Both the position numbers and the translations under genes were made by a program. The notes beneath the pieces are model-generated. The model did no database searches. It had not been told where the DNA came from and was given only the letters and a program-made list of their open reading frames with translations. 64,000 nt of DNA. Source: Clostridia bacterium (GTDB lineage Bacteria; Bacillota; Clostridia; Lachnospirales; Anaerotignaceae). This document shows positions 5,153 to 39,897 of the stretch, piece after piece (the stretch's first letter is position 1; each line of letters begins with the position of its first letter). Location: contig CAJTDC010000001.1 of the NCBI GenBank assembly GCA_910575055.1, forward strand, positions 62,001 to 126,000, given 5' to 3'.

Positions 5153-6031
5153 TTATTCTATGTTTTGTATTTGTTCTCTTATTTTCTCAATTTCACTTTT
5201 CATTTCTATTGTAACACCAGTAATTTCAATATCATTTGCTTTAGAAGCAATAGTATTTACTTCTCTATTCATTTCTTGTACCAAAAAATCTAATTTCCTT
5301 CCAATTTGTCCCCCTTTTTGTAATATATCTTTCAACTGTACAATATGGCTTTCCAATCTTGTCACTTCTTCATCTATACAACTACGGTCAGCAAATAATG
5401 CTGTTTCCATAGCAATTCTTTGTTCATCTATTTCTACTGTAGACAAAAGTTCTTTTATTCTATTTTGCAACTTTTCTTTATATTCATTTACTACAAAAGG
5501 ACATCTTTGTTTTATTGTTTCTAGCATTTTCTGTATTTGTTCTCTTTTATTTAAAATATCATTTACAAGTGCTGTTCCTTCTTTTTCTCTCATCTCTACA
5601 AATTTTGAAATCGCTTGTTCTAATGCAGGTAAAAGTATTTTCCATAAAATATCTTCTTGTCCTTCTGTTTTTTCTACTGTAATAACATCAGCAAAACGTG
5701 CCACTAAATCTAATGTATTTTGAGAAGATACATCAAATTTTTGTTCTAATTCATGTAATTTTTCTATATATGCCATTGCTAAAGGTTCATTTACTTTTAC
5801 AATAACATTATCGACAGAAAATGTTTCAAATGTAATGTATACATCTGTTTTTCCTCTTGCAATTTCTTTCATAATTCTCTTACGAATGGCATCTTCCATT
5901 CCATTCATAAAACGTGGTAATTTTATAGATATGTCATTATATCTGTGATTTACAGATTTAATTTCTACTACAAAATGGCACTCATTTGCCATATATTCTC
6001 CTCTGCCGTAACCTGTCATACTTCTTACCAT
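5153..6031 (-). CDS. yicC: YicC/YloC family endoribonuclease
   Basis: 292-aa member of the YicC family, described as an endoribonuclease involved in RNA decay. It opens with the signature [13 protein letters not shown], contains [18 protein letters not shown] and ends with the conserved block [32 protein letters not shown] (split here only for description) and [14 protein letters not shown] start at 6031 because AAAGAGG lies 9 nt upstream and the family begins here; an upstream in-frame ATG at 6055 adds eight non-family residues. It is the first gene of the yicC-remA-gmk-rpoZ operon, divergent from rqcH. Confidence 0.95.
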
Positions 6032-24807: not shown

Positions 24808-27800
24808 TTATACATATGCTTTGTCCTCAAAATTAACAGAAATCATTTTTGATACTCCCTTTTCCTGCATTGTTACACCATACATTACATCTGCTGCTTC
24901 CATAGTACCCTTTCTATGTGTAATCACTATAAATTGTGTATCTTTTGAAAATTTCTTTAAATAATCGGCATATCTTTTTACATTTGCATCATCTAAAGCA
25001 GCCTCAATTTCATCTAATATACAAAAAGGAGAAGGTTTCATTTTTAATATGGAAAATAATATTGCAATCGCTGTTAGTGCTCTTTCTCCTCCAGAAAGCA
25101 ACAACATATTTTGAAGGCTTTTTCCGGGAGGTTGTGCAATAATTTCTATAGAGGACTCTAGCACTTTTGTTTCATCACTTAATTTTAAATAAGCTTTTCC
25201 TCCTCCAAACATTTCACGAAACACTTCTCCAAAATTTTTAGAAATAACATCAAACTGCTCTCTAAATCTATTTTCCATCATTTGGGATAAATCCGAAATA
25301 AGCAAATGTAATTTTTGTTCTGCCTCTAATATATCTGTTTTTTGTGTTATTAAAAAATTATAACGCTGTTTTACTTCTTTATAATTTTCAATAGCTTCTA
25401 CATTAACAGCACCTAGTTCTTTTATTTGATTTTTCCACTGTTTTGTATCAGATTTTAACTTTTGATAAGAAGCTGTTTGTACTTGTGTATCATATTGTTT
25501 TTTTACTATTTGATACGTCATTTCATATTCTTCCCATATTTCATTAAAAAGCCTTTGTTTTTCTTCTGTTATTTTTTCTTGTTTTGTTTCTATACGAAAT
25601 ATCTCATTACTCAATAAAGAAATATTTTCTATCATTTGTTTTTGCTCTTGTTCTAACACGGCAATTTGTTGTTTTTTTTGTTCTCTATTTTCTGTTAATT
25701 CTGTAAAAACAGACTGCTTTTTTTGTTCTTGTTGTTTATAAAAAATGTTTTTTTGTTCTAATTCTTTTTGCTCTAATTCTTTTTGTTTGCTCAATTTCTG
25801 AAAAGAAATCATTTCTTGTTGTATTTGTTCTTGTTCTTGTTTTAATGTAACATTTTGTTGTTTCAAACGTTGTATACTTTCTTTTACTGCCTTTTTATTT
25901 TGTTCTTCTGCTGAAATATTTACTTTTAATTCTGTTATAGTATTTAAAATAGTTTCTCTTTGTTGTTTTTCTTCTGTCATATTATATTGAAATGCAGAAA
26001 GTTTTTCATTAATATAGTTCATTTTTTGTTCTGTCTGTTCTACTATTTTTTTAAATTCAGTCACTTCTTTTTCAGCAAATTGGCATTGTTCTACTATCTG
26101 TTTTTGTTCTAAATCATATAATTTTTGTTTTTGTTGTCTTTCTAACAATAAATTTTCTGTATTTTGTTTATCTTCTTGGTTTTTTTGTAAAGATAACTGT
26201 ATTTCTTGTTTTTTCATTTGTTTTTGCATAAAAAGCTCATTATTTTGTTCTAGTTGTTGTTCTAACATATGAAATTGCTTTTGACAATTTTGTAAAAGTA
26301 TTTGTTCTTTTTCTATATCTTCTGACAAATCATTAATTTCTCTGCTTCTACTAAAAACACTTGTTGTTTTTTTTGCCATACTTCCACCTGTCATAGCGCC
26401 GCCTATATTAAATAAATCTCCTTCTAATGTTACCATACGATATTGATTATGATATTTTTTAGACAGCAAAATGGCTATATCAATATTTTCTACTATTACT
26501 GTTCTACCTAAAAGAGACTGTATTACATTATCATAAACAGTATCATATTCTATTAAATCGCTAGCTACACCTAATACACCGTTTTCTGACAGTATTTCTT
26601 CTTTTATTAATTTTCTTCCCTTTATAGAAGTAACAGGCAAAAATGTAGCACGTCCCAAATGGTACTGCTTTAAATACTGTATTGCCTCTTTAGCATCATA
26701 TTCTGTTTTTGTAATGATATTTTGAATATTTCCCCCTAATGCAATTTCAACAGCAGTTTCATATTTTTGAGCAACACAAATTAATTCTCCCACTACACCA
26801 CAAATTCCCTGCCATTTTTCATTTCCCGAATGTTTCAAATGCAATATACTTTTTACACTTTTATAATATCCTTCATGCTCTTTTTCCATTTCAGAAAGAA
26901 CAGAAAAACGAGAGCGTTTTTGTGTTAATTGTTGTTCTCTTTTTTTCTGTTCTTCAGAAATATTTTCTTTTTCAGCATATAATTTTTTTACATTTTGTTG
27001 CAACTGTAAAAGTGTTTGTTCTATTTCTTTTTGCTGTTTTTCAAAATCTCGTTTTTGTTTTGAAAGCACCTCATTATGTATCTGATGTGTATGAATTTGG
27101 TCTTTTAAATATTCTTTTTCTGAAGAAAGCTGTTTTTTTCTTTGCTCAAACTGTTCCAGTAAAGACTGTCTTTGACTCATATCACCTTTTGCTTCTGTAC
27201 TAATACGTATTTGTTCTACCATTTCACTTTTATAATCTTCTACATTTTTTTCATTTTCAGAAAGATTACTATTTAATTCATCAAAAATTTTTTCTTGCTG
27301 TTGTAATTTTTCTTTTGCACTTTTTGTTGTTACATCAATTGCTGTTATTTTTGTTAAAAGTAATTGCTCTTCTTTTTGATTTTGCTCTTGTTGTTTTTGA
27401 TGAGAACTGTTTTCTTTTTCTAATCGTTGTATATTTTGTAAAAAATGTTGTATTTGTTCTTTTGCTAAACGAACATCACTTTCTGTTTTTTCCTGCTGAG
27501 AGCGAAAAAAAATTATTTCTTGTTGTATTTTCTGTATTTCATTTTTTAATTGTTCTGACTGTTGTTGTAGATTTTGTTTTTGTTCTGTTTTCTGTTCATT
27601 TTGTTTTAATAAATTTTGTTTATTTTCCAGTGCAATATCTTTGTTATTTTGCTGCTTGACATATTCCTTTTCTATATTGTCTATATCAGTACAAAACATA
27701 GTTAAAGTTGCATATTTTATTTTTTCTCTTAAATCTAAATATATTTTAGCTTTATTGGATTGCTTCTCTAAACTATCCATTTGTCCTTCTAGTTCTGCAA

Positions 27801-28383
27801 TAATGTCTTCTACTCTCATTAAATTTTGCTGTTCTTTTTCTAATTTTATAATTGCTTCATTTTTACGCACTTTATATTTTACAATGCCTGCCGCTTCTTC
27901 AAATATACGCCTTCTGTCATCTGCTTTTGCACTCAATAATTCATCTATACGTCCCTGTCCTACTATAGAATAGCCTTCTCTCCCTACCCCTGTATCCATA
28001 AACAACTCGTGAATATCTTTTAATCGACAGTTTGTACCATTGATTTGATATTCGCTTTCTCCAGAGCGATATACTCGGCGCGTTACTGTTACTTCTGTAT
28101 AATCAATAGGCATTTTTTGGTCTTGATTATCTATTGTAATAGCAACCTCTGCAAATCCTAATGCTTTTCTTGTTTCTGTGCCAGCAAATATGATATCTTC
28201 CATTTTATCTCCACGAAGTGATTTCGCTTTTTGTTCTCCTAATACCCATCTTACTGCATCAGAAACATTACTTTTTCCGCTCCCATTTGGTCCTACTACT
28301 GCTGTAATTCCTTTATTGAATTCTAACTTTACCTTATCTGAAAAAGATTTAAAACCATGTACACTTAATTGTTTTAAATACAT
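24808..28383 (-). CDS. smc: Chromosome segregation protein SMC
   Basis: 1191-aa condensin ATPase. N-terminal head with GPNGSGKSNVSDAVRWVLGEQ, long coiled coil 1 (about 170-500), hinge with GICGVVGELICV and GGAMTGGSM (about 510-660), coiled coil 2 (about 670-1010), and the C-terminal head with signature LLSGGERALTAIA and Walker B FCILDEIEAALDDANV. Gln/Glu-rich coiled coils are long but uninterrupted. Start at ATG 28383 (AAAGAGGTGTATCA upstream). In many Clostridia acpP and rnc precede smc; here pyrC does, 26 nt away. Confidence 0.98.
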   Translation of the reverse strand: MYLKQLSVHGFKSFSDKVKLEFNKGITAVVGPNGSGKSNVSDAVRWVLGEQKAKSLRGDKMEDIIFAGTETRKALGFAEVAITIDNQDQKMPIDYTEVTVTRRVYRSGESEYQINGTNCRLKDIHELFMDTGVGREGYSIVGQGRIDELLSAKADDRRRIFEEAAGIVKYKVRKNEAIIKLEKEQQNLMRVEDIIAELEGQMDSLEKQSNKAKIYLDLREKIKYATLTMFCTDIDNIEKEYVKQQNNKDIALENKQNLLKQNEQKTEQKQNLQQQSEQLKNEIQKIQQEIIFFRSQQEKTESDVRLAKEQIQHFLQNIQRLEKENSSHQKQQEQNQKEEQLLLTKITAIDVTTKSAKEKLQQQEKIFDELNSNLSENEKNVEDYKSEMVEQIRISTEAKGDMSQRQSLLEQFEQRKKQLSSEKEYLKDQIHTHQIHNEVLSKQKRDFEKQQKEIEQTLLQLQQNVKKLYAEKENISEEQKKREQQLTQKRSRFSVLSEMEKEHEGYYKSVKSILHLKHSGNEKWQGICGVVGELICVAQKYETAVEIALGGNIQNIITKTEYDAKEAIQYLKQYHLGRATFLPVTSIKGRKLIKEEILSENGVLGVASDLIEYDTVYDNVIQSLLGRTVIVENIDIAILLSKKYHNQYRMVTLEGDLFNIGGAMTGGSMAKKTTSVFSRSREINDLSEDIEKEQILLQNCQKQFHMLEQQLEQNNELFMQKQMKKQEIQLSLQKNQEDKQNTENLLLERQQKQKLYDLEQKQIVEQCQFAEKEVTEFKKIVEQTEQKMNYINEKLSAFQYNMTEEKQQRETILNTITELKVNISAEEQNKKAVKESIQRLKQQNVTLKQEQEQIQQEMISFQKLSKQKELEQKELEQKNIFYKQQEQKKQSVFTELTENREQKKQQIAVLEQEQKQMIENISLLSNEIFRIETKQEKITEEKQRLFNEIWEEYEMTYQIVKKQYDTQVQTASYQKLKSDTKQWKNQIKELGAVNVEAIENYKEVKQRYNFLITQKTDILEAEQKLHLLISDLSQMMENRFREQFDVISKNFGEVFREMFGGGKAYLKLSDETKVLESSIEIIAQPPGKSLQNMLLLSGGERALTAIAILFSILKMKPSPFCILDEIEAALDDANVKRYADYLKKFSKDTQFIVITHRKGTMEAADVMYGVTMQEKGVSKMISVNFEDKAYV

Positions 28384-28409
28384 TGATACACCTCTTTGAT
28401 ACAAAATAA

Positions 28410-29681
28410 TTATGTCAATATCCTACCGCCCACAATAGTACAAATTACTTTACCTTTGACTTTTTTGTCAGCAAAAGGAGAAAATTTGGCTTTTGAAACA
28501 AATTTTTCAGGTTGTATGGTATAACTTTCTTCCAAATCTACTACCACTAAATCTCCGTCCATACCTTCTGCAATTTTTCCTTTTTTGTGTAGCCCTAATA
28601 TTTCAGCAGGTTTTGTAGAAAGTAATTCTACTAACTTACTTAATGGTACTTTTTGTTGTACTACCAATTTACTATAACTTAATGCGAATGCTGTTTCAAA
28701 AGCAGAAATACCATAATCTGCATTATCAAATTCTTTATTTTTATCTGTTAATTTTGTAGGGCTATGTCCTGATGTAATAACATCAATAGTACCATCTAAT
28801 ATCCCCTCTATAATTGCTTTTACATCTTCTTTTGTCCTTAATGGAGGCTTTACTTTTGCTAATGTATTATAATTTTCGACTGCTTCTTCTGTTAATAAAA
28901 AATAATGAGGGCTTGTTTCACAAGTAATACGTGTTCCTCTTTTTTTTGCTTCTCTAATCAGTTGTACAGAACCTTTTGTTGTAACATTTGAAATATGTAA
29001 TTTTGCTCCCATACCTTCTGCTAATATAATATTTCTTGTCACTATTACTTCTTCTGCTTCTTTTGGTATACCCAAAAGTCCCAAACTAGAAGACATATAT
29101 CCCTCATTCATAACACCCTTTCCTGCAAGGTTTTTGTCTTCACAATGTGTTAATACAGGCATATCAAACATTTTAGAATAGCGAAATACATTCGCTAAAA
29201 AAGAGGCATTCATAATAGAACGTCCGCCATCAGCAATCCCTACGATACCTGCTTCGTACATTTCTCCAATTTCTGACATATGTTCTCCCAAACACCCTAC
29301 GGACATACTGCCATAAGGAAATATATTTACAAGAGAGTATTCTTTACTTTTTGAAACAATATATTCTACTACTGTTTTATTATCAATGGCAGGATTTGTA
29401 TTTGGTTCACAAGTAATGCTTGTAAAGCCTCCTCTCGCTGCACTACAAGAAGCCGTTTCAATATCTTCTATATATTCATATCCTGGGTCACAGACACTAC
29501 AGTGCATATCAATAAATCCAGGTAGTATATATTTCCCATCTGCATCTAATATTTCTGCTCCATTTTCCTCTAAGTTCTCGCCGATTTTACATATTACACC
29601 ATCTTCCATATAAATATCAAGGCGTTTATGATGATTAAAATCTTTTCCTATAATACGACCATTTTTTACAATACTTTTCAT
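28410..29681 (-). CDS. pyrC: Dihydroorotase-like protein with a degenerate metal site
   Basis: 423 aa, clearly of the dihydroorotase fold over its full length (GGFTSITCEPNTNPAID, VLTHCEDKNLAGKG, LLGIPKEAEE, ETSPHYFLL, KVKPPLRTKED). The catalytic pattern is broken: the zinc HxH reads HCS (H60, S62), the substrate Arg of REPG is Cys (CDPG), the SDDG Asp is Gly (ADGG, G152), the HIS(T) zinc His is Asn (N232), and the catalytic Asp of TDHAPH is Gly (SGHSPT, G305). Four of six metal-site residues of Bacillus PyrC are gone; H60 and H179 stay. It starts inside the pyrB stop (ATGA). A non-catalytic partner of PyrB, like the pDHO of Pseudomonas, or a new function, is likely. Family call sure, active enzyme very unlikely. 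Confidence 0.85.
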   Translation of the reverse strand: MKSIVKNGRIIGKDFNHHKRLDIYMEDGVICKIGENLEENGAEILDADGKYILPGFIDMHCSVCDPGYEYIEDIETASCSAARGGFTSITCEPNTNPAIDNKTVVEYIVSKSKEYSLVNIFPYGSMSVGCLGEHMSEIGEMYEAGIVGIADGGRSIMNASFLANVFRYSKMFDMPVLTHCEDKNLAGKGVMNEGYMSSSLGLLGIPKEAEEVIVTRNIILAEGMGAKLHISNVTTKGSVQLIREAKKRGTRITCETSPHYFLLTEEAVENYNTLAKVKPPLRTKEDVKAIIEGILDGTIDVITSGHSPTKLTDKNKEFDNADYGISAFETAFALSYSKLVVQQKVPLSKLVELLSTKPAEILGLHKKGKIAEGMDGDLVVVDLEESYTIQPEKFVSKAKFSPFADKKVKGKVICTIVGGRILT

Positions 29682-30604
29682 TTTAATCCGCCTCCTATCT
29701 GTGATAAAATATAAAGCATTGCCATACGTACTGCTACACTATTGGCTATTTGGTCATTAATAATACATCTCTTACTATCTATAACATCAGCAGAAATCTC
29801 AATTCCTCTTTGTATAGGTCCTGGGTGCATTATAATCGTATCTGGTTTAGCATAGTGAAGTAAATTTTCATCTACTCTAAAAAAATGTTTATATTCTGTT
29901 AAAGAAGGTACTAAATTTTTATTTTTTGTTTCATTTTTCATTCTGCTTGTTAATATGACATCTGCTCCTGCTACTGCCTTTTTCGCATCATAATAAACAT
30001 CTACACCAAATTTCTCAATATCTGAAGGCAAAAGTGTAGGAGGCCCTGAAACACAAACACTTGCCCCTAATTTTGTTAATGCCCATATGTTACTTTTACA
30101 AACTCTACTATGTATCAAATCTCCTATAATTGCTACACGAAGTCCTTTAAAATCTCCTTTTTGTTCTTTAATTGTCATTAAATCTAATAAAGATTGTCCT
30201 GGATTTTCATTAAAACCATCTCCTGCATTGACAACAGATGCACTTACATTTTTTGCTAATAATCTTGCTGCTCCTGCCATAGGATGACGTAATATAATAA
30301 AATCTGCTCCTGTTTGGTCAACTAACTGCCCCATATCTTGCAATTTTTCTTGATAAACATTTGTTGCCATTGTCATATCTACCACATTTGCACTTAAATG
30401 TTGTGCTGCCATTTCATATGATAATTTTGCTCTTGCACTTGGTTCATAAAATAATATAATAACAGATTTCCCTTGTAAATGAGGTGACTTTTTATTTTTT
30501 TGATTTAATATATATTTCATTGTTTCTGCTGTACTTAATATATATCGTATTTCTTCTGCTGTTAAGTCACGCATACCAAAAAAATCTTTCTTTTTAAAAA
30601 CCAT
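29678..30604 (-). CDS. pyrB: Aspartate carbamoyltransferase-like protein with a degenerate active site
   Basis: 308 aa, full ATCase length and order: ILFYEPSARAKLSYEMAA, ILRHPMAGAARLLA, NAGDGFNENPGQSLLDL, GDLIHSRVCKSN, IMHPGPIQRGIEI. Against E. coli PyrB the carbamoyl-phosphate loop S52-T53-R54-T55 reads SARA (56-59), S80 is Ala, K84 is Tyr, H134 is Asn and Q231 is Lys, while R105, Q137, R167 and R229 are kept. Loss of the Thr pair, K84 and H134 should abolish carbamoyl transfer to aspartate. It has a good ribosome site (AGGAGG) and lies 37 nt after rluD and overlaps pyrC by 4 nt, the ancestral lspA-rluD-pyr locus of Firmicutes, but without pyrR, pyrP or carA/B. Confidence 0.85.
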   Translation of the reverse strand: MVFKKKDFFGMRDLTAEEIRYILSTAETMKYILNQKNKKSPHLQGKSVIILFYEPSARAKLSYEMAAQHLSANVVDMTMATNVYQEKLQDMGQLVDQTGADFIILRHPMAGAARLLAKNVSASVVNAGDGFNENPGQSLLDLMTIKEQKGDFKGLRVAIIGDLIHSRVCKSNIWALTKLGASVCVSGPPTLLPSDIEKFGVDVYYDAKKAVAGADVILTSRMKNETKNKNLVPSLTEYKHFFRVDENLLHYAKPDTIIMHPGPIQRGIEISADVIDSKRCIINDQIANSVAVRMAMLYILSQIGGGLK

Positions 30605-30641
30605 ATACTAGCCTCCTATCTATCAGAAATACAATGTCATT

Positions 30642-31574
30642 TTACAAACGTATTCTTAATTTTTCTATCAGTTTTAAAAAATATTCTGGAAGTGGTGCTT
30701 CAAATTCCATATATTGCTTTGTACTAGGGTGTATAAATCCCAATACTTTTGCGTGAAGTGCTTGTCCTTGTAATGAAAAAGGTTGTTTTTTGCTGCCATA
30801 TACCACATCTCCCAAAAGGGGGTGTCCTATTGATGTCATATGCACTCTAATTTGATGAGTACGTCCTGTTTCCAGTTGTGCTTCTATATAAGTATAATTT
30901 CCTAATCTTTCTAACACTTTATAATGTGTTACAGCACGACGACTATTTTTTTGTGTCACAGCCATTTTTTTTCTGTCTTGGGCACTTCGCCCAATAGGTT
31001 TATCTATTGTTCCATTTTCTTCTTTTATGCCATTGAATACAATCGCATGATATTTTCTTGTAATGCTATGCTCTGCTAATTGTAGTGCCAAACACTGATG
31101 TGCTTTGTCATTTTTTGCTACCATCAATACACCAGAGGTATCTTTATCAATTCTATGCACAATACCTGGTCTTTGCTCTCCATTAATACCAGAAAGCTGG
31201 TCTTTACAGTGATACAAAAGTGCATTGACAAGTGTTCCTGTCATATGTCCTACTGCAGGATGTACTACCATACCTTGAGGCTTATTCACAACAATAATAT
31301 CTTTATCTTCATACAAAATATCAATATCAATATCTTCTGGTAATATTTCCACTACTTCTACATCTGGTATTATCAATACTACAACATCTTTTTCTCTTAA
31401 TTTATAATTTGATTTTACACTATTTTCATTTACTTTTAAATATTGCTTCTCTATCAATTTTTGTATTCTACTTCTGGAAATCGTTTGTTCTATTTGTTCT
31501 ATTTGTTCTGTTACAAATACATCAATTCTTTTGGATTTATCTTCTTGCTCTGCTACCCATGTTAAAACTTCCAT
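30642..31574 (-). CDS. rluD: RluA/RluD family 23S rRNA pseudouridine synthase
   Basis: 310 aa. N-terminal S4 RNA-binding domain (residues 15-85), then the catalytic domain with motif I NKPQGMVVHPAVGH and motif II GIVHRIDKDTSGVLMVAKND, which holds the catalytic Asp, and LETGRTHQIRVHMTSIGHPLLGD. Equivalent to YlyB of Bacillus, next to lspA. Start at ATG 31574 (AAAGGAGTAAAA) rather than the longer basic extension from 31646. Gap to lspA 11 nt. Confidence 0.93.
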   Translation of the reverse strand: MEVLTWVAEQEDKSKRIDVFVTEQIEQIEQTISRSRIQKLIEKQYLKVNENSVKSNYKLREKDVVVLIIPDVEVVEILPEDIDIDILYEDKDIIVVNKPQGMVVHPAVGHMTGTLVNALLYHCKDQLSGINGEQRPGIVHRIDKDTSGVLMVAKNDKAHQCLALQLAEHSITRKYHAIVFNGIKEENGTIDKPIGRSAQDRKKMAVTQKNSRRAVTHYKVLERLGNYTYIEAQLETGRTHQIRVHMTSIGHPLLGDVVYGSKKQPFSLQGQALHAKVLGFIHPSTKQYMEFEAPLPEYFLKLIEKLRIRL

Positions 31575-31585
31575 TTTTACTCCTT

Positions 31586-32083
31586 TTATACTTCTTTTTT
31601 TTCTTCTTCTTTTATTACAAAAAGGCTTAAAAACAATATAAAGCAAGCTCCTACTACAACATAAATATCGGCTAAATTAAATACTGGCCATTTTATAAAC
31701 GTTACTTCTAAAAAATCTACTACATATCCTCTTACAGCTCTGTCAATTACATTTCCTATTGCTCCTGACAACACAAGAACTAATCCACATTTTAACCAAT
31801 TATATTCTTTTGTTTTAGGTAATTTATAAAAACTATAAATAATTCCTGCTGCAACAACAACTGTCAAAAGTATAAAAAATACTCTTTTTCCTGACAATAT
31901 TCCAAATGCTGCTCCTCTATTTTCTACAAATGTAAAATCTAAAAATCCCTTTATTACAACGGTATTTTTAATTGGTTTTAGTTTTGTCAATGCCTGCCAT
32001 TTTGTAATTTGGTCTAATATTACTAATATAATTACTGTTATTGCAGAAATGATATAAAATTGTTTATCGCTTTTATTTTCCAT
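31586..32083 (-). CDS. lspA: Lipoprotein signal peptidase
   Basis: 165-aa membrane aspartyl protease that cleaves prolipoprotein signal peptides. Four TM segments are seen. Family motifs: DQITKW, VENRGAAFGIL, GNVIDRAVRGYVVDF and FNLADIYVVVG; the two catalytic Asp are in VVDF and NLAD. A very basic/acidic tail (KEEEKKEV) ends it. It overlaps aroB by one nucleotide. A second, more divergent copy lies at 52642-53118. This one has all conserved residues and is the likely housekeeping enzyme, serving the several lipoproteins in this window. Confidence 0.96.
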   Translation of the reverse strand: MENKSDKQFYIISAITVIILVILDQITKWQALTKLKPIKNTVVIKGFLDFTFVENRGAAFGILSGKRVFFILLTVVVAAGIIYSFYKLPKTKEYNWLKCGLVLVLSGAIGNVIDRAVRGYVVDFLEVTFIKWPVFNLADIYVVVGACFILFLSLFVIKEEEKKEV

Positions 32084-38239: not shown

Positions 38240-39721
38240 ATGGAACAATTTGATATTTACAAAGATATCGCTGAACGTACAGATGGCTGTGTCTACTTAG
38301 GAATTGTAGGTCCTGTTCGTACTGGAAAATCTACTTTTATAAAACGCTTTATGGATTTACTCGTACTACCTAATATAGAAAACAGCTATGCAAGAGAAAG
38401 AGCACAAGATGAATTACCACAATCCGCATCTGGAAAAAACATTATGACAACAGAACCAAAATTTGTACCAAATGAAGCAGTTGCTATTACAATAGGTGAT
38501 GATGTTAATTTAAAAGTACGTCTAATTGACTGTGTAGGCTATATTGTACCAGAAGCAGAAGGACATATGGAAGAAGAAAATACCCCTCGTATGGTGCATA
38601 CTCCTTGGTCACAAGATGCCATTCCTTTTTTAGAAGCGGCAGAATTGGGAACAAAAAAAGTAATTACTGACCATTCTACTATAGGTATTGTTATTACAAC
38701 AGATGGTTCTGTAACAGATTTATCTCGTGAAAGTTACGAAGATGCAGAACAGAGAGTAATAAACGAATTAAAACAAATTGGAAAACCTTTTGTTGTATTA
38801 TTAAATACTGCTAGACCTTATAATGATGATACCATTTCATTGCAGCAGGAATTAATGGAAAAATATGCTGTTCCTGTACTACCTGTTAACTGTGCTCAAT
38901 TAAAAAATGAAGACATTAAAACAATATTAGAAAAAGTTCTTTATGAATTTCCTATGAAAGAAATACGTCTTCATTTTCCTACATGGATTGAAACATTAGA
39001 AGAAAACCATTGGTTAAAACAAAGTATTATAACAAGTTTAAAAAATTTAATGAATGCTGTTGAAAAACTGACAGATGTAAAAGAAAATCTAAACACTTTA
39101 GAGCAAAATGAATACATAAAAAAAGCATATACTGATGGAATTATGTTAGGAGAAGGTGCGATTGACATTGCATTATCTGTAGATGACAGTTTATTTTACA
39201 AAATATTAAGTGAAACCATTGATATGCCTATTGAAAATGACTCTCAACTGATTTCTACAATCAAAATGCTTTCTGATATTAAAAAGAAATATGATAAAAT
39301 AGAATGTGCACTTCACGACGTCAAAAGAAAAGGCTATGGTGTAGTATCTCCAGTATTTGAAGAAATTAAATTAGAACAACCCGAAGTATTCAAACAAGGT
39401 TCTCGCTTTGGTATCAAGTTAAAAGCAAAAGGAGAATCTATTCATATGATTAAAGCAGATATTGAAACAGAAGTATCTCCTATTATAGGAAATGAAGAAC
39501 AATCTAAGGAATTTATAGATAGTTTAATACAGGATTATGATGTTGACCCTCAAAAAATATGGGATTTGAATATATTTGGGAGAACATTGCAATCTATGGT
39601 GAGTGATGGTATGCAAAATAAAATTTACAGAATGCCTGAAGAAGCTCAAATGAAACTACAAGAAACATTACAAAAAATTGTCAATGAAGGTAGTGGCGGT
39701 TTAATTTGTATTATATTATAG
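38240..39721 (+). CDS. spoIVA: Spore coat morphogenetic ATPase SpoIVA
   Basis: 493 aa, same length as the Bacillus protein. It polymerises on the forespore outer membrane with ATP hydrolysis and forms the coat base. Opening MEQFDIYKDIAERTDGCVYLGIVGPVRTGKSTFIKRF includes Walker A GPVRTGKST (residues 24-32); LIDCVGYIVPEAEGHMEE, TDHSTIGIVITTDGSVTDL and PFVVLLNT follow. The C-terminus ends hydrophobic (GGLICIIL), as needed for membrane/SpoVM localisation. Start at ATG 38240 after AAAGGAGGTTTATTTT. Confidence 0.97.
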   Translation: MEQFDIYKDIAERTDGCVYLGIVGPVRTGKSTFIKRFMDLLVLPNIENSYARERAQDELPQSASGKNIMTTEPKFVPNEAVAITIGDDVNLKVRLIDCVGYIVPEAEGHMEEENTPRMVHTPWSQDAIPFLEAAELGTKKVITDHSTIGIVITTDGSVTDLSRESYEDAEQRVINELKQIGKPFVVLLNTARPYNDDTISLQQELMEKYAVPVLPVNCAQLKNEDIKTILEKVLYEFPMKEIRLHFPTWIETLEENHWLKQSIITSLKNLMNAVEKLTDVKENLNTLEQNEYIKKAYTDGIMLGEGAIDIALSVDDSLFYKILSETIDMPIENDSQLISTIKMLSDIKKKYDKIECALHDVKRKGYGVVSPVFEEIKLEQPEVFKQGSRFGIKLKAKGESIHMIKADIETEVSPIIGNEEQSKEFIDSLIQDYDVDPQKIWDLNIFGRTLQSMVSDGMQNKIYRMPEEAQMKLQETLQKIVNEGSGGLICIIL

Positions 39722-39724
39722 TAT

Positions 39725-39754
39725 AAAAGGACAATGCAAAAGCATTGTCCTTTT
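39725..39754. terminator. Bidirectional terminator spoIVA / 43-aa mini-ORF
   Basis: 13-bp perfect stem AAAAGGACAATGC/GCATTGTCCTTTT with an AAAA loop, 3 nt after the spoIVA stop and 11 nt beyond the mini-ORF stop on the other strand. Confidence 0.85.
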
Positions 39755-39765
39755 ATTGAAAATTT

Positions 39766-39897
39766 TTAAAATATTGTACCCCATTCTCCACAATAAATAC
39801 TATACAGCAAAAATACTATTCCTATTATCACCAAAAATATCCCTATTTTTTCTTTTTTAGTTAGTTTCTGTTGCTGCTTGTTGTTCCGCTGCACCAC
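39766..39897 (-). CDS. 43-aa single-TM mini-protein overlapping the redoxin gene (CD1871A-like, truncated?)
   Basis: A short frame missed by ATG-based calling. GTG at 39897 (a second GTG follows at once) has GGGGAG six bases upstream and overlaps the last 41 nt of the redoxin-like gene in another frame. The product has a basic N-terminus (QRNNKQQQKLTKKEK), one TM helix (IGIFLVIIGIVFLLYSIY) and ends CGEWGTIF-stop. The pattern G.....GEW.T(I/V) recalls the CD1871A family of small CXXC proteins encoded next to TlpA-like redoxins, but the KA..IC.ECIG tail with the CXXC is missing, so it would be a truncated version. Short length keeps confidence moderate. Confidence 0.5.
   Translation of the reverse strand: MVQRNNKQQQKLTKKEKIGIFLVIIGIVFLLYSIYCGEWGTIF

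Follow-up and report, generated by a model that had tools for sequence, protein, structure and literature searches.

A conserved PyrB-PyrC pair of Clostridia that lacks catalytic residues of both enzymes and may act as a metabolite-responsive complex

Two adjacent genes of the aspartate carbamoyltransferase (ATCase) and dihydroorotase (DHOase) families lie on the minus strand of the window, that is, the whole stretch of 64,000 nucleotides from a Clostridia bacterium that was analysed, and they are called pyrB* and pyrC* here. The gene pyrB* (29678..30604) encodes an ATCase-like protein of 308 amino acids without the SxRT and HPxQ motifs and pyrC* (28410..29681) encodes a type-I DHOase-like protein of 423 amino acids without H61, R63, D151, H231, D304 and H308, both being recognized by their open reading frames (ORFs), Pfam and NCBIfam models, motif alignment and orthologues. 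The two ORFs are intact and full length and their frames overlap by ATGA, just as they had been read in an earlier note made from the sequence alone, and each has a strong Shine-Dalgarno sequence, GATAGGAGG for pyrB* and GATAGGAGGCGG for pyrC*. Upstream of the pair on the same strand are rluD (30642..31646) and lspA (31586..32083), which are conserved neighbours by synteny, rluD across families, and downstream, also on the minus strand, is smc (24808..28404), a neighbour by synteny that is confined to the window's own family, where most loci have it. The 37-base gap between rluD and pyrB* (30605..30641, minus strand) holds the ribosome-binding site of pyrB*, and the terminator scan found no terminator-like site in it, so that transcriptional read-through from lspA-rluD into pyrB* is suggested. 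The window's own locus carries neither pyrR nor uraA, and an Rfam scan at an E-value of 0.5 found no PyrR-binding leader there. Elsewhere in the window (39719-39798, minus strand) there is a weak Rfam match to DapZ (32.6 bits against a gathering threshold of 56), which is probably due to chance.

Pfam and NCBIfam assign the two proteins to the ATCase and dihydroorotase families, and the scores are above the NCBI cut-offs, namely 318 versus 263 bits (NF002032) and 258 versus 237 bits (TIGR00670) for PyrB* as aspartate carbamoyltransferase, and 385 versus 279 bits for PyrC* with the dihydroorotase subfamily model TIGR00857. In ATCases, the SxRT motif binds the phosphate of carbamoyl phosphate and the HPxQ motif binds the carbamoyl group (PMC4581275). 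Alignment to solved ATCases places S56-A57-R58-A59 of the window PyrB* on S52-T53-R54-T55 of the Escherichia coli enzyme, N134 on H134 and K223 on Q231, the motifs of the window protein being SARA, NPGQ, HPGP and RMK; the 80s loop is shortened and remodelled, with Y84 near K84, and it is ambiguous which residues pair exactly with S80 and K84. When 66 distinct PyrB* sequences, drawn from nine families of the same order (f1, f4, f5, f7, f12, f17, f21, f22 and f25), were compared with 89 canonical sequences, T53, T55, S80, K84 and H134 were gone from almost all of them: H134 is lost in 66/66 (N in 61, D in 5), HPxQ is likewise lost in all 66 and T55 of SxRT is lost in 60 and kept in six. In the same 66 sequences the pocket residues R54, R105, Q137 and R167 are kept together with P266, and the position of R229 is occupied by R in 46, as in the window, and by K in 18. 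The earlier note had not remarked on these retained pocket residues, and the basic ones could serve folding instead of ligand binding. The ATCase fold and the C-terminal HP[LG]P motif are both present (HPGP in the window; model TM 0.8). The structure model of PyrB* (pLDDT 80, pTM 0.85), of which the active-site loops are among the least certain parts, matches best the Bacillus subtilis structure 3r7l and also the Aquifex complex 3d6n.

In the type-I DHOase of Aquifex, the first metal site (H59/H61/D151 equivalents) is essential and the second is dispensable, and the zinc-free enzyme is inactive (PMC3880350). In alignment to solved enzymes, H60-C61-S62 of the window PyrC* corresponds to H59-V60-H61 of the Bacillus DHOase, and C64, G152, N232, G305 and T309 correspond to R63, D151, H231, D304 and H308, respectively; H60 (the equivalent of H59) and the H178 equivalent are kept, and of the essential metal site (H59, H61, D151 and D304 equivalents) only H59 is left in the window protein. 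Of 64 PyrC* sequences, none retains R63 or D151 and a single one retains H61; H308 is lost in 61 and D304 in 53, N93 is kept in 44, and about two thirds keep H178 and H231, which bind the second metal. Consequently R63, N93 and H308, the substrate residues that as a set mark a type-I DHOase, are not found together in PyrC*. The loss of D151 is the least certain call, DG having turned into GD in most orthologues. The cysteine at position 60 was considered as a new gain and this was rejected, for HCH is already present in active pairs of other orders; the intact enzymes of those orders carry a DMHCHLREPG-like motif, which explains the DMHC of PyrC*. The PyrC* model (pLDDT 65) is too weak for pocket geometry, with type-I dihydroorotases still as its first matches, and both models were built from shallow alignments.

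Some individual copies of pyrC* deserve mention. A single PyrC* (L118 in genome G063, family f7) has H61, in the motif DMHCHLC, and has lost R63, D151 and D304, and it is a possible intermediate. In L132 (genome G089, family f17), an insert of about 0.7 kb (about 5235-5958) interrupts pyrC*; it matches group II introns (RF02004, 140 bits; RF00029, 63 bits), starts with GTGCG and contains no long ORF. In L033 of one draft genome (G004), a frameshift or an assembly error divides pyrC* into two frames that overlap (residues 1-248 and 246-422).

In both proteins the substitutions lie ungapped inside conserved blocks whose flanks are well conserved, so that the catalytic residues are not merely shifted, and an alignment shift that hides them is rejected. 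Among the columns invariant in active enzymes, the losses fall preferentially on residues of the active site (Fisher p = 0.036 for PyrB* and 0.009 for PyrC*), and this concentration, together with the recurrence across dozens of genomes, argues for more than chance. Among the degenerate positions that the earlier note had listed, H61, D151, H231 and D304 of PyrC and the SARA loop, N134 and the lysine at the Q231 position of PyrB are thus real by alignment to the solved enzymes, and its pairing of A80 and Y84 with S80 and K84 turned out to be ambiguous.

Of the 58 genomes of the window's own family, 36 have a PyrB* match with a PyrC* match beside it (in a few of them the two lie at contig ends), and the identities to the window range from 64% (PyrB*) and 51% (PyrC*) upwards. 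The order is probably GTDB Lachnospirales and family f1 the Anaerotignaceae, to judge by the named members Anaerotignum and ASF356. Order-wide, matches at E ≤ 1e-92 occur in 103 of the 392 genomes sampled; four of the 103 (family f24) are canonical, as shown by motif for three of the four, and the absence of the pair from other families depends on this E-value cut-off. In a class-wide sample of 391 genomes, the nearest relatives outside the order (30 loci read) are intact enzymes. Wherever a fetched locus is long enough for both, pyrB* and pyrC* are neighbours, and the two proteins are present jointly and absent jointly. Furthermore, the degeneration is graded among families: D304 and the hydroxyls S53/S55 persist in f21 and f22, the pocket of f22 members being more complete (D304 and Q231 are among the residues present), and f1 and f12 are more fully degenerate. 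A one-contig genome of the window's family (G021, genus g6) has neither gene and its seven congeners have both, a natural loss.

PyrB* forms one clade (support 97) and PyrC* forms another (support 100), with the intact enzymes of the order and the class outside; the clades are rooted only by these outside enzymes, and the branching inside them largely follows the genome families. A tree artefact caused by the shared active-site changes is rejected, the PyrB* clade being whole without those columns (support 93). Both trees place the loss of the catalytic residues of the two proteins earlier than the last ancestor shared by the pairs sampled, in agreement with the earlier suggestion that both activities had been lost, perhaps together.

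The pairs mostly adjoin rluD, and most loci of f21 and f22 have the order lspA-rluD-pyrR-uraA-pyrB*-pyrC*. A PyrR-binding leader lies just before pyrR in four loci (L135, L138, L140 and L141) at 48-49 bits and an E-value of about 0.001, the gathering threshold being 54; in the 12 loci scanned, no PyrR-type leader was found at gathering thresholds, and the leaders of relatives show only at relaxed ones. In other orders, pyrR-(uraA)-pyrB-pyrC occurs with intact residues; in nine of the fetched loci rluD comes immediately before these genes, and pyrF often follows them. Because the same locus thus carries intact pyrB-pyrC in other orders, the pair is most simply explained as the positional, vertically inherited descendant of an ancestral lspA-rluD-pyrR-uraA-pyrB-pyrC locus, and pyrR and uraA would most simply have been lost later in f1, f5, f12 and f17. 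Today's active PyrB-PyrC sets of the carrier genomes sit on other branches of the trees. The ancestral lspA-rluD-pyr locus that had been proposed is therefore real, since relatives keep pyrR-uraA before the degenerate pair; the loss of carAB that had been proposed with it is plausible, no carAB being found at the pair's locus in the relatives examined.

The window genome (3.55 Mb, 98% complete) has a second pyrB (48% identical) and pyrC (40% identical), which are adjacent on contig C22 with catalytic motifs present and are followed by pyrF and pyrK, while carB is on C4 and pyrD-pyrE on C18. This is the second, canonical set that had been named as the thing to look for, and with it in place the window pair seems dispensable for the de novo pyrimidine pathway. 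A third match to the carbamoyltransferase family, on C1, is of the ornithine type. An ORF near the canonical pyr operon (L006, C22, 11233-11841) looks like an IS1-type transposase, judged by eye only. The one-contig genome of Clostridium sp. MD294 ASF356 has the degenerate and the intact pairs on the same chromosome, and contamination or a binning artefact of the window's draft genome is thereby rejected. Most carriers in the window's family also have a separate pyrB, and a second pyrB is present in nearly all of the 47 carriers outside it; none was found in G081, G089, G179 and G233, which are 74-93% complete.

Pairwise Nei-Gojobori dN/dS values, pairs with saturated dS being left uninterpreted, are 0.008-0.08 for PyrB* and 0.027-0.18 for PyrC*. 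In the closest pair, the window versus ASF356, they are 0.014 for PyrB* and 0.029 for PyrC*, and the active copies give 0.048 and 0.070; in the other comparisons, selection on the active copies is as strict as on the degenerate ones or somewhat stricter. Over 32 loci, PyrB* has accumulated 0.79 substitutions per site, which is slower than RluD (0.93), and PyrC* 1.16, which is faster. Moreover, the distances of PyrB* and PyrC* remain correlated after the contribution of RluD is removed (partial r 0.68, partial Mantel p 0.0002). The pair is kept full-length, adjacent and co-evolving under strong purifying selection. The check proposed in the earlier note, of whether the substitutions are conserved in relatives and at what dN/dS, came out in favour of its interpretation: they are conserved, and dN/dS is very low.

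It is very probable from these sequences that the pair is dead in both original reactions and has been functionally retained. The database annotation, by which the two proteins would still work as ATCase and dihydroorotase and only their active sites would be unusual, can call on the scores above the cut-offs of NF002032, TIGR00670 and TIGR00857, but H134, the S80/K84 loop and the two SxRT threonines are gone from PyrB*, and PyrC* has lost H61, R63, D151, D304 and H308 in a type of enzyme that is inactive when zinc-free (PMC3880350), so this is highly improbable. Decay of functionless genes on their way to loss would agree with the lost catalytic residues, with the lack of the pair in certain relatives, G021 among them, and with the frameshifted copy in G004; nevertheless, the frames are open in nearly all copies, dN/dS is far below 1 and PyrB* evolves more slowly than RluD across the order, which leaves decay with hardly any credit.

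The explanation that we modestly favour as a whole is that the ancestral pair has become a retained, non-catalytic and metabolite-responsive PyrB*-PyrC* body. De novo pyrimidine synthesis is now served by a second, active pyrB-pyrC set, and PyrB* trimers would be bridged by PyrC* dimers in the style of the PyrB6-PyrC6 complexes of class A (PMC7053772); by analogy with the known assemblies, the pair probably works as such a complex. The PyrB* pocket keeps the basic residues R54, R105, R167 and R229/K, the histidine of carbamoyl transfer and the phosphate-clamping residues of the neighbouring subunit being gone, so that an anionic metabolite (carbamoyl-aspartate, aspartate, a nucleotide or phosphate) could be bound there and left unconverted. 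A precedent for sensing at this place is the plant ATCase, of which the active site is occupied by UMP (PMC7878868). Ligand binding would then change the complex and its contacts, and the pair may on this basis be a metabolite-responsive regulator or scaffold, a role that we regard as possible but somewhat doubtful. In the families with pyrR-uraA in front, the expression of the pair would follow the pyrimidine supply. Points against this explanation are that pyrR, uraA and a PyrR leader are missing from the window's own locus, that the leaders of f21 and f22 score below the gathering threshold, and that PyrC* evolves faster than RluD. A more specific history is put forward only tentatively: in an ancestor common to many gut Clostridia, the whole two-gene module would have become a metabolite-sensing, non-catalytic PyrB*-PyrC* complex, which was at first under the control of PyrR-uraA and later escaped from it.

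The same purifying selection would be expected if the two proteins were neofunctionalized enzymes that have lost the old reactions and catalyze a new, related one on another substrate. New fixed states (N134 in 61/66, G151 in 61/64 and C63 in 53/64) fit this, published pseudo-ATCases did include an active ureidoglycine carbamoyltransferase (PMC4016543), and f22, with more of its pocket retained (D304 and Q231), is where a new reaction is most conceivable. However, every carbamoyltransferase family in the table of PMC4016543 keeps the SxRT and HPxQ motifs that PyrB* has lost, ligands of the essential metal site are missing from PyrC*, and the less conserved positions S80, K84, Q231 and H308 drift between families, unlike those of a conserved new site; a new reaction is thus fairly unlikely. 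Alternatively, the dead pair might bind the cell's active PyrB or PyrC and activate or stabilize it like a prozyme. The pseudo-dihydroorotase that serves ATCase in class A2 of Pseudomonas (PMC7053772) and a known prozyme (PMC5201418) are precedents, and the models predict that the fold of both proteins is kept. This reading is weakened by the two unrelated active ATCases with which the pair occurs in one family, the clostridial type and an E. coli-type PyrB (with pyrI in 15/15 loci examined); in addition, the same active enzymes occur in relatives that have no such pair, and the active pairs are located elsewhere in the genome; a prozyme role is accordingly judged unlikely.

A pseudoenzyme is as a rule one protein that exists alongside an active relative, while here two successive enzymes of a central pathway have lost their catalytic residues as a unit and have then been retained as a unit. 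If the metabolite-sensing reading of the pair is true, it would be an undescribed layer of pyrimidine or aspartate regulation. The gradation from the less degenerate f21 and f22 to the more degenerate f1 and f12 makes an enzyme-to-non-enzyme transition testable on extant proteins, and a cultured carrier is available in Clostridium ASF356 of the altered Schaedler flora. Since PyrB* and PyrC* pass the NCBI cut-offs, databases and metabolic models likely count them as working enzymes.

Among the fold matches are the CRMP/DPYSL structures 2gse and 4b3z. CRMP/DPYSL proteins are non-catalytic members of the dihydropyrimidinase/dihydroorotase superfamily that are kept for protein interactions, but unlike the pair they are animal cytoskeletal regulators and have no transcarbamylase partner. 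Pseudo-dihydroorotases are already known from class A2 and from fungi, and the present pair differs in that both of its members lack catalytic residues; the searchable literature, which covers few subscription journals, contained no PyrB-PyrC pair that is inactive in both members and accompanied by a separate pathway. The pseudo-dihydroorotase domain of fungal CAD-like proteins (PMC7053772, PMC4581275) likewise has the fold without zinc ligands and substrate residues and plays a structural role, but it is a domain of a fused protein with an active ATCase. The pseudo-ATCases including ureidoglycine carbamoyltransferase (PMC4016543) resemble PyrB* as ATCase-annotated paralogues beside a genuine ATCase; they keep STRT and HPTQ and are changed in the C-terminal (third and fourth) motifs, whereas PyrB* shows the reverse, motifs 1 and 2 being lost and HPGP mostly kept. 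The class A1 dodecamer of Aquifex (3d6n; PMC3880350) is built from the same two folds with a type I PyrC, and both sequence and model match it, but both Aquifex subunits are active, while the association of PyrB* with PyrC* is only inferred. In class A2 of Pseudomonas (PMC7053772), a DHOase homologue that lacks catalysis and zinc ligands is encoded next to a PyrB homologue, as in the pair described here; its PyrB, however, is the cell's active ATCase, whereas PyrB* is itself degenerate and separate active enzymes exist.
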